This document shows, in pieces, positions 22,537 to 38,618 of a stretch of 64,000 bases of DNA. A program made the translations under genes and the position numbers. The stretch comes from Meiothermus ruber DSM 1279. GTDB lineage: Bacteria > Deinococcota > Deinococci > Deinococcales > Thermaceae. The number at the start of each line of letters is the position of its first letter. Positions within the stretch are counted from its first letter, which is position 1. The stretch covers positions 2,108,001-2,172,000 of the forward strand of contig NC_013946.1 in assembly GCF_000024425.1 (NCBI RefSeq), written 5' to 3'. The notes under the pieces are model-generated. The model ran no database searches and was not told the origin of the DNA. It saw nothing but the letters and a program-made list of their open reading frames with translations.

Positions 22537-23808
<1,272 letters not shown>

Positions 23809-23821
23809 GTCTCCTCCTATT

Positions 23822-23842
23822 TCGTTGGAAGTGCTTCCACGA
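23822..23842. promoter_or_regulatory. LacI-type operator O1 of the malE operon
   Basis: A 21 bp palindrome with arms TCGT-T-GGAAG and CTTCC-A-CGA around the central TG lies between the promoter and the malE Shine-Dalgarno. The core TGGAAGTGCTTCCA is very close to operators of LacI/MalR-family sugar repressors. No lacI-type gene was seen in the window. Confidence 0.65.
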
Positions 23843-23879
23843 CAAGCCAGCCGCCGGAGTCGCCAGCATTCTGTCTTTT

Positions 23880-23891
23880 AGAAGAACTTCC
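23880..23891. promoter_or_regulatory. LacI-type operator O2 of the malE operon
   Basis: AGAAG-AA-CTTCC repeats the core of O1 (GGAAG-NN-CTTCC) with one changed base. It falls about 8-19 bp after the -10 element, near the transcription start. O1 and O2 centres are about 54 bp apart, near five helical turns, which would allow a tetramer or two dimers to lie on one DNA face. Confidence 0.5.
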
Positions 23892-23898
23892 TCCGCGA

Positions 23899-23927
23899 AG
23901 TCTATACCAGCCGCCGCATACTGTCAA
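23899..23927 (-). promoter_or_regulatory. Promoter of the malEFG-GH31 operon
   Basis: On the minus strand a consensus -35 TTGACA (23922-23927), 17 bp spacer and -10 TAGACT (23899-23904). It gives a leader of about 85 nt containing O2 and O1. Confidence 0.7.
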
Positions 23928-24072
23928 CTCAGTACCAATCACTTAGCAAATCGCACAGGAACAGTAAAATTCAGCGCGACCACTCCACATATTTGGATGC
24001 CGTCTAAGGGAGAAACCCTGGCAAAGATTGGACTGGATAGCGGTTTTATAGTGCTTCAGGGCTCTTTCATAC

Positions 24073-24126
24073 GCATTTCGGTGGTATCGTTCACTATGGC
24101 AAGCCTAAACGATTCTACCGAAATGC
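24073..24126. repeat. Long imperfect inverted repeat IR-A
   Basis: GCATTTCGGTGGTATCGTT (24073-24091) and AACGATTCTACCGAAATGC (24108-24126) are complementary at 17 of 19 positions around a 16 nt loop. It lies in the 593 bp gap between malE and nrdJ (23809-24401), which holds no convincing gene. Outside this repeat, IR-B, the malE promoter and the nrdJ terminator I saw nothing else in the gap. Confidence 0.7.
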
Positions 24127-24147
24127 TTTTCTACTCCCTTCGGTCGG

Positions 24148-24193
24148 CTTGAATCCTTCACCTCTGACTGCGCAGGGCGGTGAAGGATTCAAG
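24148..24193. repeat. Perfect 15 bp inverted repeat IR-B
   Basis: CTTGAATCCTTCACC (24148-24162) and GGTGAAGGATTCAAG (24179-24193) pair perfectly around a 16 nt loop, 21 bp after IR-A. The sequence differs from IR-A. There is no T-tract of note on either side, so a plain terminator is unlikely. It could be a remnant of a small non-autonomous mobile element, a nuclease-protecting RNA end or a cruciform site. Confidence 0.75.
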
Positions 24194-24301
24194 CAAAAAC
24201 GGTATCACAACCTTTTGAACGAACCCGGTTTTGGCTTGCCGCAGCCAGCAAACCAGGGGCGCTGTTCCAATGGTCGGCGTGGTTCTTTGCTCGATGCGGT
24301 C

Positions 24302-24345
24302 AAACAAAAGGGGTGGAGCGCCCCGTCGCCGGAGACTGTCCACCC
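24302..24345 (-). terminator. Rho-independent terminator of nrdJ
   Basis: In the minus-strand RNA GGGTGGA (24339-24345) pairs with TCCACCC (24311-24317) around a 21 nt loop, followed by CTTTTGTTTG. It lies 57 bp after the nrdJ stop codon. Confidence 0.65.
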
Positions 24346-24401
24346 TACCCGGTATGGGATTTTAGGTCAGCAATCCGCAGCCGTTTCCGCCAGGCTTCGG
24401 C

Positions 24402-27353
24402 TCATCCGCACTTGCTATACCCGCAGCTATAGCACTTGATACAGCCCTCTTCGCGCACCAGGTTGGCATCGCCGCACTCGGGGCACTTGCCCAGGCCGGT
24501 TTTCGGCTGGATGTTCTGGATGGGTGCGGTCATGGCCCGTTGCATGGCCTGGGGCACCATGCGGTCGTCAGGGGGCATCTGAGCGGCTTTGCGCTCGGCC
24601 TCGGCGATCTGGATTTTGCTGCTGGTCTCGAGGGCCACCGCAATCAGGTCGGCTTTGCTGGTCACGAAGCGGCCCTGGTAGCTGCCGTACAGGCCGCCAT
24701 TAATGCCGCGCAGGGTTTTGACCAGTTCGGCCACCGGCACGCCGTACTGCAGGGCCTTGGAGATGATGCGGCCCAGCGCCTCGCTATCGGCGTTGGCCTC
24801 GTCGCCGGCCTTGCCCGAGGTCAGAATTACCTCCACCGGGTGCTCGCCCTGCATATTCACCGTAACCAGGAAGCTCCGGCGGGTGCCATCGGCGGCGGTG
24901 AGTTTGACCATATCGGTGTAGCCCACCAACCGGCCCGTGCGCTCGAAGATGGGGCGGGCGGTGCGTTCCGGGCTGGGCGGAACCTCCAGAAGGGCGGGCT
25001 GTACGGCCACCGTTTCCTGGCTTTTGCTCTGGGCTTTTTCCTCTTTCTTTTCTTCCTTGCTCACCGAGAGCACCTGGAACTCACGGCTGCCATCGCGGTA
25101 AACCGTAATGCCCTTGCAGCCGGTCATGTAGGCCTCGGTATAGGCCGCCTCCACGTCTTCTACCGTGGCCTGGTTGGGCAGGTTGATGGTCTTGGAGAGC
25201 GAGTTGGCCGCGTAGCCCTCGGCATCGAAGGCGGTTTGCACCACACCTTGCATCCGCACGTGGTCTAGCGGGGGTACGTCGTGGGCCCCTTCAAACACCA
25301 AGGCGATGGCGGCGGGGATGCCCTCGAGGCCCTTCACCGTACCGTGGTTGGCCTGGATGGCCTCGATGATGGCCTCCCAGTTCCAGGCCCCGTCTTTCTC
25401 GAACGGCCCCGTGGCCGGGAACTGCTCCATCATCTCCACAAACAAGGGGTGCAGCAAAGCCTTGTACTGCCCGCCGATGCGCCGCCACATGAAGGGCGAG
25501 AACATCGGCTCGATGCCGCTCGAGACCCCCATCAGCATGCTGGTGGTTCCGGTGGGGGCCACCGTCAGCACCGCCACGTTGCGCCGCGGGCGGATGCCCA
25601 GCGCTTCGAAGGCGGCCCGGTTTTGTTCGTACACCGGGAAGACCCCGCGCTCCTGGCCCAGCCGCTCCGACTCGGCGATGGCCTCTTCACGCATGGCGTT
25701 CATCACCTGGGCCACCACCCGGCGGCCCGCCTCGGAGGAGTAGGGCAGCCCCATCTTGATGAGCATGTCGGCCAGGCCCATCACCCCCAGGCCCAGGCGG
25801 CGCAGGGTCTGGCTGGCGACGCGGTTGTCCTCGAGGGCAAACACGTTCACGTCCAGCACGTTATCCAGGAAGCGTACCGCGGTGCGCACATCCTTGCGGA
25901 ACTCGGCAAAGTTGAACGCGCCGTTTTCCACGTAGGCGGCCAGGTTGATGGCCCCCAGGTCGCAAGGTTCGCCCACCGTTAGGGGGATTTCCCCGCACGG
26001 ATTGGTCGAGCGAATCTGATAGCGCGGCCCCAGGTTCTTGAGCGCCGAAAGCTCGTTAATACGATCCACAAAGATCAAGCCGGGCTCACCAGTGGCCCAG
26101 GCGTGCCAGGCAATCTCGTGCCAGAGCCACTTGGCCGGCACCTTGCCATCGTAGACCGGGATGGGCCGGGCACCATCCTGGGCGCGCTCGGGCAGGTCGG
26201 GCAGCGCCCCTGTGTAGGGCCCCTGCACCGGGTAGGGGTAGTATTTACCTGGCACCTCCGAAGGTTCCACTGCCCATAGCCCATCGGCTTGCAGGGTCTG
26301 CCAGAAGGCTTCGGTGACCAGAATCGAGATGTTGAAGGTAGAAATATCGCCCTCGCTGGCCTCCCGGTCGAGGTCTTTGGCGGTCAGGAAGTCCAGCAGG
26401 TCGGGGTGGTCAATGGCGATGGTGGCCATCCCAGCACCACGACGGGTTCCACCCTGGCGCACCACCCGCAGCACCGGGGCGTACACATAGCGCAGGGTGG
26501 CAACGGGGCCGGCTTTTTCGGCCCCCAGGTTGGCCCACTCCAAAAAGTTATCGAAAATCTCCACCAAAAAGCTCACCGGGCCGCTGCTGGTACCACCGCT
26601 GCCCCGGATGGGCGCCCCCTCGGGCCGCAGGCTGCTGAAGTCCACATGGGGTTCCTGGCCCTTTACGGCCAGGCTCGAGGCCGATTTGGCCGCCTCGATA
26701 ATGCCGCGCATATCGTCGGGCACTACCAGCACGTCGCCGGGCCGCTCGCGCACGGTCATCACCCCGTTGCGCCGGGCCAGCGCCGCGAGTTCGGGCTTCA
26801 AAAGGCCGTAAACCACCCGCGTCCAGTTACGCACGGTGATCTGTTCCTTATCGCCATCGGGGTTAATGGGGGGGCGCATCATGCCCTTGATGAAATCCTC
26901 GACGTCGGCGTGGTCGGCGGCAATGTAAGCGAAGCCGCGCACCGTACCGCGGGGGCCGGCATGCTTGCGCGAAACGTAGGGGTCAAGGTTGACGCCGTTT
27001 CCCCCCCCCACCTTGGTCACCAGGGCCAGCTTGGTTGCAACCTCCATCACCCCATCAAAGCTGCTGGGGTCGTGTTCGGTTGCGCCCTGTACAAAGCAGT
27101 TGAGCACATTACCGTGCTGGGTGCCCGCCCCTGCCAGCACCCGCCCACCCGGGCAAAAGCGTTTGGAAGCCATCAACCGGTAAAACTGCTCGCTCCAGTA
27201 TTGCTTATCCTGCTCGGATTTTTCCGGCGAAGCCACCCAGGTAGCCACCCGGCGAAACATGCCAAACACATCCCCATCGCCCGGCTGCATATACTGGCGC
27301 TTGGCTATGGCTTGGGCATGGTCATCGAACGGTGCAGGCTCAAAGCTATGCAT
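24402..27353 (-). CDS. nrdJ: Adenosylcobalamin-dependent (class II) ribonucleotide reductase
   Basis: A 983 aa enzyme reducing ribonucleotides to deoxyribonucleotides with vitamin B12 as radical source. Visible are the N-terminal redox cysteine in GNVLNCFVQGATE, VGGGNGVNLDP, RQGGTRRGAGMATI, the radical site STNPCGEIPL near residue 450, LTVAPTGTTSMLMGVSSGIEP, and a C-terminal zinc-like CPECGDANL...CIKCYSCGYSKC tail. A lysine/glutamate-rich spacer (KEEKKEEKAQSK) precedes the tail domain. A candidate NrdR box lies 48-58 bp upstream of the ATG. B12 dependence explains DNA synthesis with or without oxygen. Confidence 0.96.
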   Translation of the reverse strand: MHSFEPAPFDDHAQAIAKRQYMQPGDGDVFGMFRRVATWVASPEKSEQDKQYWSEQFYRLMASKRFCPGGRVLAGAGTQHGNVLNCFVQGATEHDPSSFDGVMEVATKLALVTKVGGGNGVNLDPYVSRKHAGPRGTVRGFAYIAADHADVEDFIKGMMRPPINPDGDKEQITVRNWTRVVYGLLKPELAALARRNGVMTVRERPGDVLVVPDDMRGIIEAAKSASSLAVKGQEPHVDFSSLRPEGAPIRGSGGTSSGPVSFLVEIFDNFLEWANLGAEKAGPVATLRYVYAPVLRVVRQGGTRRGAGMATIAIDHPDLLDFLTAKDLDREASEGDISTFNISILVTEAFWQTLQADGLWAVEPSEVPGKYYPYPVQGPYTGALPDLPERAQDGARPIPVYDGKVPAKWLWHEIAWHAWATGEPGLIFVDRINELSALKNLGPRYQIRSTNPCGEIPLTVGEPCDLGAINLAAYVENGAFNFAEFRKDVRTAVRFLDNVLDVNVFALEDNRVASQTLRRLGLGVMGLADMLIKMGLPYSSEAGRRVVAQVMNAMREEAIAESERLGQERGVFPVYEQNRAAFEALGIRPRRNVAVLTVAPTGTTSMLMGVSSGIEPMFSPFMWRRIGGQYKALLHPLFVEMMEQFPATGPFEKDGAWNWEAIIEAIQANHGTVKGLEGIPAAIALVFEGAHDVPPLDHVRMQGVVQTAFDAEGYAANSLSKTINLPNQATVEDVEAAYTEAYMTGCKGITVYRDGSREFQVLSVSKEEKKEEKAQSKSQETVAVQPALLEVPPSPERTARPIFERTGRLVGYTDMVKLTAADGTRRSFLVTVNMQGEHPVEVILTSGKAGDEANADSEALGRIISKALQYGVPVAELVKTLRGINGGLYGSYQGRFVTSKADLIAVALETSSKIQIAEAERKAAQMPPDDRMVPQAMQRAMTAPIQNIQPKTGLGKCPECGDANLVREEGCIKCYSCGYSKCG

Positions 27354-27400
27354 GAACTCCTCCCAATTTTCAGCAAGAACACCCCGGCCACCCTGGTGGC

Positions 27401-27411
27401 ACTATATATAG
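27401..27411. promoter_or_regulatory. Candidate NrdR box upstream of nrdJ
   Basis: ACTATATATAG contains CTATATATAG (27402-27411), which fits the core CWATATATWG of the box bound by the repressor NrdR at ribonucleotide reductase promoters. The flanks (GCA left, GGG right) are weaker. It would overlap the -10 region of nrdJ. A second, partial AT box CATATATTGTGA is at 27535-27546, further away than the usual tandem spacing. Confidence 0.45.
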
Positions 27412-27548
27412 GGGCTTCCGCGCTAAATGCTACTACCGGTTGTGTGTTCCTGGCAAGTAGACCAGAGTAACGATTAAGAATGCTAGCAATACGATAGTTA
27501 CATAATATGCCAAGACCCGCCCAGAAGCAAGGCTCATATATTGTGATT

Positions 27549-27578
27549 CTTATAGCATCTAGACACTATAAGCAGTAA
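27549..27578 (-). promoter_or_regulatory. Possible distal nrdJ promoter in the 27354-27630 gap
   Basis: On the minus strand TTACTG (27573-27578), an 18 bp spacer and TATAAG (27549-27554). A 7 bp inverted repeat CTTATAG/CTATAAG (27549-27572) overlaps it. The 277 bp gap between the GH13 gene and nrdJ is clearly AT-richer than its surroundings and holds no gene that I can support. No cobalamin riboswitch motif was recognised. Confidence 0.3.
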
Positions 27579-27630
27579 TTCTATGCTGGATTGCATCTGT
27601 TACAGGCAGAAAATCCCAGCCACCCGGTTC

Positions 27631-29085
27631 CTATTCAAGGGGCTGCCAAACCGCCAGGCTAAACGGCTCGAGGACACCATCTTCCAGATAACCGCCCACG
27701 CAGCGGCCTGTTTTGCCTGATAACCGGTCGACCGTCCGCTCGCCCCGCGGCCACAGCCCGTGCAGAGGAAAATCGATGCGCCAGGGTTCCGGGGAGGTAT
27801 TGATCGTTACCACCACGCTGGAATGCTCGAGGGTACGGGCAAAGGCCAGGTGGCCGTCCTGGGCATACAGGTACTGGTAGCGCCCCCGGCGCAGCGCTGG
27901 CAACGAGCGACGCAAAGCCGACATCTGCTGGATGGTCTGCTGAATGGATTTGTGCCAGCGAGACTCATCCCAGATCATGCCGCGGCGGTTGTCGGGATCG
28001 TGGCCTCCGGCCATGCCGATCTCGTCACCGTAGTAGACCGTGGGTGCGCCTGGAAGGGTGAAAAGCATGGCAAAAGCCAACTGCACCCGCTCAACCTGGC
28101 CGCGCAAAATACTGAAGATGCGGGGGGTGTCGTGCGAGGTCATGATGTTCATCTGGGCGGTCACGATCTCCCAGTCGTAGCGGCGGAAGAGCTCCTCGAG
28201 GCGGTGGTGGCAGGCCATGGCCCCCAGGCTTTCTATGCGCCCCAGGCCGCTTTTGGCAGCCAGGTCTTTGTCCAGCACATCAGCCCCCACAAAGCCCAGG
28301 ATGGCCCGCCCCAGCGGATAGTTCATCACCGCGTCAAATTGATCGCCTTGCAACCAGCGGCTGGCGTCATCCCAGATCTCACCCACAATGTAGGCCTCGG
28401 GGTTCCGGGCCTTAACCCTCCGGCGGAACTCACGCCAAAAATCGTCGTCGTCAATCTCGTTGGGCACATCCAGGCGCCAGCCATCAATACCGTACTGTAG
28501 CCAGTATTCCGCCACCGACAGCAGATACTCCCGACACTCGGGGTTGGCGGTGTTGAACTTGGGAAGCTCGGGGTTGTTCCACCAGGCCGCGTAGTTGGCG
28601 TGTTTGGTATAGGCGTTCAGGGGAAACTTGTAGATGTGAAACCAGTTGAGGTAGGGCGAGGCCGCCTCGTTTTCCATGATGTGCTGAAAAGCAAAGTGGG
28701 CCCGCCCGCAGTGGTTGAACACCCCGTCCAACACCACCCGTATATCGCGCCGGTGGGCCTCCTCCACCAACCGCTGCAGCGCCAGATTACCCCCCAGGAT
28801 GGGGTCTACCTGGAAGTAGTCGCTGGTGTGATAGCGGTGGTTGGCCGTCGAGGCGAAGATGGGACAGAAGTACAGGGCGTTGAAGCCCTGCTCTTTAATG
28901 TAGTCCAGCTTCTCGATGACCCCCCAGAGGTTGCCCCCTTTGAAACCGCGCAGGGTAGGGGGGGCATCCCAAGCCTCAAAAGCACCTTGCACCGGCGCAG
29001 GTTGGCCCGCTGGCCCCTGCCCTATGCGAAAACGATCTGGAAATATTTGGTAGAAAACCGCGTCTTTGACCCAATCTGGTGTCAT
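27631..29085 (-). CDS. GH13 alpha-amylase-family enzyme (cyclomaltodextrinase/neopullulanase-like)
   Basis: This 484 aa cytoplasmic enzyme has the GH13 barrel: VFYQIFPDRF, region I VVLDGVFNHCG, region II GWRLDVPNEI (nucleophile Asp), region III VGEIWDDA (acid/base Glu) and region IV MTSHDTPR. TLRGFKGGNLWGVIEKLDYI recalls cyclomaltodextrinases and maltogenic enzymes. The long N-terminal domain of typical neopullulanases is absent; the barrel starts at residue 8. It has no signal peptide, so it likely acts on imported maltodextrins. It lies divergent from gmk and upstream of nrdJ on the same strand. Confidence 0.87.
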   Translation of the reverse strand: MTPDWVKDAVFYQIFPDRFRIGQGPAGQPAPVQGAFEAWDAPPTLRGFKGGNLWGVIEKLDYIKEQGFNALYFCPIFASTANHRYHTSDYFQVDPILGGNLALQRLVEEAHRRDIRVVLDGVFNHCGRAHFAFQHIMENEAASPYLNWFHIYKFPLNAYTKHANYAAWWNNPELPKFNTANPECREYLLSVAEYWLQYGIDGWRLDVPNEIDDDDFWREFRRRVKARNPEAYIVGEIWDDASRWLQGDQFDAVMNYPLGRAILGFVGADVLDKDLAAKSGLGRIESLGAMACHHRLEELFRRYDWEIVTAQMNIMTSHDTPRIFSILRGQVERVQLAFAMLFTLPGAPTVYYGDEIGMAGGHDPDNRRGMIWDESRWHKSIQQTIQQMSALRRSLPALRRGRYQYLYAQDGHLAFARTLEHSSVVVTINTSPEPWRIDFPLHGLWPRGERTVDRLSGKTGRCVGGYLEDGVLEPFSLAVWQPLE

Positions 29086-38262: not shown

Positions 38263-38618
38263 TGGTGGAGGCGGCGAGAGTCGAACTCGCGTCCAGAAGC
38301 CTATCCAGCAGACATCTACGTGTGTAGTTGGTGTTTAGTTGTCGTTCAGGCTTGCGCCACCAACAGCGGGCCTGAACCAAGCTCCGCGAAGGGTTCGCTC
38401 TTGGCTACGGAGCCTTGCCTCGAGCTAGCCGACTTTGGATCGTTCATTCAGTACGCCATCGGCTGGGCTTCTGAAGAACGTCGCTGGCTTAAGCAGCGAG
38501 GGCGTAGCTGTTGCTACGGACGTTGCCAGTTATGGCTTTGCCCATTTTTACGAGGCCATGGGCTACCTCGACACGCCGTACTGCCTTCAAGAGCCCCTGT
38601 CGAAACCGGAACGCCCCC
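38263..38618 (-). ncRNA. ssrA: Transfer-messenger RNA
   Basis: The RNA of about 356 nt rescues stalled ribosomes with SmpB. Its 5' end GGGGGCG pairs with CGCCTCC next to the encoded ACCA 3' end (acceptor stem, one G-U). GGTTTCGACAGGGG follows the 5' strand and GAGTTCGACTCTCGC forms the T-arm, both tmRNA hallmarks. The tag reading frame ends ...YALAA-TAA; with a Gly resume codon the tag is GNVRSNSYALAA (12 residues). The YALAA end is the usual protease-recognition tail. The choice of resume codon is my reading. Pseudoknot regions follow downstream. A promoter and terminator flank it. Confidence 0.95.

Follow-up and report, generated by a model that had tools for sequence, protein, structure and literature searches.

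A MITE-like two-hairpin element dispersed in Meiothermus ruber and its relatives

REP/REPIN sequences and the palindromic elements derived from IS200/IS605 are rich in hairpins, lie mostly between genes and reach high copy numbers. Y1 transposition does not duplicate its target. Elements of the IS1031 and ISL2 groups of the IS5 family are flanked by a duplicated TNA target. The bacterial MITEs (Correia/NEMIS, RUP, ERIC and the Coxiella QMITEs; for a review see PMC10969869) are shorter than 250 bp, contain no gene, occur as many dispersed and mostly intergenic copies, and have a short target duplication and end repeats. The size, lack of a gene, dispersal and short target duplication of the MITEs are also seen in an element that we describe here from a 64,000-nucleotide stretch of the Meiothermus ruber DSM 1279 genome (the window); its end repeats are clear in the second of two families. 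Unlike the bacterial MITEs it has two unrelated internal hairpins and a linker that is identical across the two families, the end repeats of family 1 are very weak, and no parent IS appeared among the end-pattern matches listed or the loci of two transposase families. It shares the TNA duplication with the IS5 family, and IS5-type elements are present in the same genus, but among the printed local elements these have GAGACTGTC-like ends whereas the Meiothermus element ends in TAC. Like the REP/REPIN and IS200/IS605-derived elements it is hairpin-rich, mostly intergenic and of high copy number; in contrast to them it has a target duplication.

We class the element with the MITEs. It is short, non-coding and dispersed, with a target duplication of constant length, and its size, spread and duplication all fit, although the end repeats of family 1 are weak. 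Among the open-access papers searched, none was listed that deals with an element of this sort from Meiothermus. Its ends are precise, and together with its insertion rule and empty sites they make this abundant mobile repeat of Meiothermus and nearby genera usable in annotation and as a strain marker.

The element in the window

The window copy of family 1 occupies positions 24070-24204 of the plus strand (135 bp, beginning TACGCATTTCGG and ending CGGTA), with boundaries that are sharp in aligned copies. It spans the full length of the element, with 95.6% identity to the consensus. TCA, a form of TNA, flanks it at 24067-24069 and at 24205-24207, and comparison of the copies identifies this as the target-site duplication. 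Hairpin A (24073-24126) has 19-nt arms at 24073-24091 and 24108-24126, of which 17/19 positions pair, and a 16-nt loop; it is followed by TTTTCT. A linker of 20 bp (24127-24146) then leads to hairpin B (24147-24194), in which arms of 16 nt (24147-24162 and 24179-24194) pair at 16/16 positions around a loop that is also 16 nt. A 15-nt sequence, ACTCCCTTCGGTCGG (24133-24147, plus strand), is identical in family 2; it lies within the linker except for its final base, with which hairpin B begins. Both hairpins are indicated by arm pairing, folding and paired changes. The right terminal stretch AAAAACGGTA (24195-24204) has a reverse complement weakly similar to the left end; by eye the end repeats match at 7/12 positions, TAC included. 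The folding z scores are −6.8 and −7.0 on the two strands, with 0/200 shuffles equally stable. Perfect arms of 15 nt or longer around loops of up to 30 were found at a single place in the window (24147) and in 0/20 Markov-1 simulations.

The initial annotation had described the two inverted repeats. Recomputation returned its values for hairpin A (17/19 pairing and a 16-nt loop). Its loop length and perfect pairing for hairpin B also hold, but the arms are 16/16 rather than 15/15, and the two hairpins, in tandem as it said, lie 20 bp rather than 21 bp apart. They have no sequence kinship, again as claimed, yet they are the two halves of one element. A T-tract was said to be missing after both; there is none 3′ of hairpin B, but the TTTTCT after hairpin A provides a short T-rich tail on the plus strand. 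The lower GC content was correctly seen (0.506 at 23750-24249 vs 0.614 at 23250-23749 and 0.628 at 24250-24749); other stretches close by are as low (0.524 at 27250-27749). The region was also rightly said to hold no supported gene: the only ORFs listed between the flanking genes are mechanical ones, with one exception no longer than 122 aa, and a codon-usage script called none. The exception, of 160 aa, has its start inside the solute-binding-protein gene.

That gene (minus strand, starting at 23808) is one neighbour of the hairpin pair, and a ribonucleotide reductase gene (minus strand, ending at 24402) is the other. A promoter-like TTGACA-17-TAGACT at 23927-23899, upstream of the solute-binding-protein gene, is intact and not broken by the element. 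At 11/30 loci (L054-L063 and L066) the nrdJ-like match is about 1.1-1.3 kb longer than the gene in the window, which may point to inteins. A terminator scan of 23750-24500 found no site; it considers loops of 3-8 only and is blind to hairpins with 16-nt loops. At the gathering score Rfam had no match on the two-hairpin element, where sub-threshold matches reached 19.9 of 45 bits and 8.9 of 50 bits. The only Rfam match in the window is the tmRNA gene at 38263-38618 (minus strand, tag GNVRSNSYALAA), which is ordinary.

Copies and insertion sites

The genome of M. ruber has a length of 3,097,457 bp, the figure published for the type strain (PMC3035268). It contains at least 34 covariance-model matches of at least 75 bits, the window copy included, with 150 of 852 candidates scored; some of the lower-scoring matches are to the opposite strand of these hairpins. 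BLAST identified 27 of the 34 as full-length copies and the other seven as partial. A DNA search of 41 genomes, with at most 19 candidates scored per genome, gave matches in five, that is M. ruber itself and 4/17 others of its genus, and in 0/23 outside the genus (0/7 in the rest of the family and 0/16 in other families). Window positions 23811-24401 had no match in a search against plasmids and phages, and the family-1 pattern had none in viral contigs. The element is present at dozens of places in M. ruber and its relatives, and is one of a larger set of like-built elements. The further copies for which the initial annotation had proposed a search are dispersed both in the same genome and in those four others. 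Of its suggestion of a degenerate small mobile element, the small mobile element stands, given the dispersal, target duplication and empty sites; "degenerate" does not apply to a full-length copy this close to the consensus.

We examined 76 loci, comprising 61 full-length copies, 11 partial ones and four without a match. L001 and L006, which repeat the window copy and L009, were left out of the set of 61; a single copy is counted twice there, as L007 and as L136, which is corrected in a reduction to 55 distinct flanks. The element reads TAC...GTA between two copies of TNA. T..A is present on the left in 57/61 and on the right in 59/61, and the middle base is the same on both sides in 57/61 full-length copies, or in 51/55 when repeated flanks are removed. 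With ends that continue in A/T, a one-base duplication within TNA is indistinguishable from one of three bases, and we have adopted the usual three-base form.

The joined flanks of 10 sites were compared with 18 genomes of the genus, and seven had matches across the junction. At four of the seven a relative has a clean empty site with one TNA (L021/L216, L025/L217, L024/L218 and L018/L219). The other three were L012 (gaps or one side), L019 (one side, with short flanks) and L022 (a decayed copy in the relative). The comparison of empty sites proposed earlier is therefore borne out at these four loci, but is weaker at the window's own site. There the Meiothermus locus L046 reads on by eye with a single TCA, and a decayed, opposite-facing copy lies some 17 bases past it. 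M. taiwanensis (L038) has no copy at this site, in a stretch that is poorly alignable and holds another TAC-ended element. The L018 site is filled in G008 and G013 by an element of opposite orientation, in G008 beside an IS630-like element; some insertion sites have therefore been used more than once.

For the genomic context, 22 of the 27 full-length M. ruber copies had both neighbours called by a crude codon-usage script; three copies inside a called ORF and two with a missing neighbour were left out. Twelve of the 22 lie between convergent genes, 10 between codirectional genes and none between divergent genes. Among the 53 gene pairs of the window, by comparison, 8 are convergent and 9 divergent, the other 36 being codirectional (Fisher p = 0.001 for convergent and 0.05 for divergent). 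The 10 codirectional copies split 6 vs 4 by orientation, showing no clear bias. That most copies are intergenic, and often between convergent genes, is probably because copies last mainly where no gene or promoter is broken. Targeting of stop codons was considered and rejected: 9/22 insertions are exactly on a stop codon, against 8.4 (sd 1.6) expected from the TNA sites that the same intervals offer. Survival between genes therefore explains them, and an insertion exactly on a stop codon would be tolerated, as the TNA duplication leaves the stop intact.

A second family and changes in the stems

Family 2 has quite different hairpins but the same plan as family 1, with TNA duplications and the identical 15-nt linker. 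Its elements start TACCGGATTC, end GAATCTGGTA and are about 125 bp long, and the end repeat is 10 bp with 9/10 matching (TACCGGATTC / TACCAGATTC). Hairpin A of this family is mostly followed by TAGAGC, with no T-rich tail. Among 30 linker-bearing loci six are family 1 and 24 family 2; TNA is equal on both sides in 16/24 of the latter, while one of the remaining 8/24 runs off its contig and the others have unequal or decayed ends. The linker occurs in 15/111 genomes of the order, in 3/31 genera, and in 12/18 genomes of the genus of M. ruber, with up to 65 per genome for both families together and 0 for the backward control.

Longer family-2 variants (156-211 bp) make up 12/14 loci fetched from one genome (G022), the 14 having been chosen as equal-TNA pairs among the matches listed in the end-pattern search. 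In L227-L238 of this genome the linker region has extra sequence, and some of these variants also hold additional G+C-rich hairpins, which gives the element a modular look. Named records that match are plasmids, one of M. taiwanensis WR-220 over 86% of the query and one of Allomeiothermus silvanus DSM 9946 over 47%. The linker together with 3 nt more is also found exactly in two low-GC viral contigs (L211 2045-2062 and L212 5070-5087). The rest of the element is absent there by eye, so these were rejected as element copies and taken as unrelated; ARAGORN found no tRNA at either site.

In an alignment of 56 family-1 sequences, 13 cells are changed on both sides of a pair, compared with 3.7 in shuffles (0/500 reach this value), and double changes occur at 5/35 pairs (reached in 9/500). 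Nine of the 13 replace U-A by C-G at a single pair, for further pair types the alignment does not exceed the shuffles (260/500 reach), and a +3 slide gives nearly the same covariation score (0.041 vs 0.043). For family 2 the alignment (A3) contained 17 intact-ended sequences, chosen by script from 36 loci that include family-1 loci. There are 25 paired-change cells compared with 6.2 in shuffles (0/500 reach), and double changes at 8/39 pairs (0/500), seven of the eight within the 18-pair helix of hairpin B; pair types are again not above the shuffles (176/500). The shuffles ignore the relatedness of the sequences. The alignments suggest that stem changes are partly compensatory, weakly in family 1 alone and clearly in family 2, but hairpin-templated correction could yield the same paired changes without selection. 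Two of the 61 full-length copies, L035 609-745 (G000 26208-26344) and L158 (G013), from two species and with the same flanks, have the loop of hairpin A inverted. Since the loop is inverted, the arms of hairpin A seem to have recombined in these two.

The linker is common to families whose covarying hairpins differ, which prompts a question that can be tested: is the folded form read by transposition, or by the host? It is conceivable, though we are doubtful, that the two families belong to a superfamily of modular elements, in which two interchangeable covarying hairpins surround the invariant 15-nt linker and the folded form, as cruciform or transcript, is recognised by the transposition machinery or the host. 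If so, the superfamily would be a TNA-duplicating, DDE-type element that relies on structure rather than on end-repeat sequence.

Movement of the element and neighbouring insertion sequences

The sequence at 24070-24204 is very probably a copy of a MITE-like, non-autonomous DNA element that is moved in trans by a DDE transposase. It has sharp TAC...GTA ends, a TNA duplication, dispersed copies, empty sites, no supported gene inside and some paired changes in its stems. The constant short duplication together with the precise ends points to cut-and-paste transposition by such an enzyme. A DDE-type transposase supplied in trans would cut at the TAC/GTA ends, insertion would take place at TNA through cuts staggered by 3 bases, and the TNA would be duplicated on repair. 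Transposase binding, or persistence of the element, probably depends on the hairpins and on the linker that the families share.

A hairpin near each end, paired changes in the stems and the weak end repeats of family 1 would also be expected if the hairpins were the recognised ends of a single-strand transposition of the IS200/IS605 or RAYT/REP type, with a Y1 HUH transposase as the mover. However, the variable TNA base is the same on both sides in 57/61 copies and the empty sites hold one TNA, and we consider this explanation very improbable. The element might otherwise serve the host as a structured RNA or as a regulatory element, acting at the 3′ end, in termination or in stability, spread by transposition and kept for its transcript; this is compatible with a MITE-like element. 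The initial annotation had suggested a two-hairpin RNA, which the stem covariation makes possible. The paired changes, the preference for convergent gene ends, the linker common to both families and the TTTTCT after hairpin A agree with such a role. However, there is no Rfam match, no clear orientation bias between codirectional genes (6 vs 4), and no T-rich tail at hairpin B or at hairpin A of family 2; the sites are empty in close relatives, and the paired changes are also obtainable by hairpin-templated correction. A host-function RNA is therefore unlikely, if less so than single-strand transposition. None of the results favours a site with a chromosomal role, which the initial annotation had also named. 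Chance or decayed inverted repeats, which the initial annotation held likelier should neither repeat be found elsewhere and no transcript exist, have a negligible probability: they are refuted by the dispersed copies, at least 34 in this genome, and the target duplication, the folding z scores and the simulations also speak against them.

Against the MITE-like reading, an end-pattern search found no autonomous TAC-ended element in M. ruber, nor was there one among the matches listed for three relatives and for a genome from a different genus of the family. No TAC-ended transposase element was present among the transposase loci of two Pfam families and all collected loci. The weak end repeats of family 1, the structure measures that shuffles often reach and the three M. 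ruber copies inside a called ORF speak against it as well. Two long end pairs with matching TNA were considered as partners and rejected. L166 (G013:C3:69298-70507) is a family-1 copy with an IS630-like element inserted in hairpin B, and L078 is a TAC-ended element interrupted by an IS5-type element. An IS630-like element of the same kind as in L166, with a DDE_3 domain, lies beside another copy in L215 (G008:C2).

Local IS5-type elements of the genus have ends GAGACTGTC or GAAACTGTTG; the printed ends are GAGACTGTC-like or TAGAGCC/TAGAATC, and none is TAC. In 8/11 printed copies, of two types, TNA is equal on both sides by eye. For four of the 11 the direct neighbour is a family-1 element, met at its right end, and elements of families 1 and 2 also adjoin each other. 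IS5-type elements with GAGACTGTC or similar ends directly abut two-hairpin ends in L110, L112, L113, L124, L148 and L011. This abutting of element ends by IS5-type, family-1 and family-2 elements suggests that the ends may be favoured as insertion targets.
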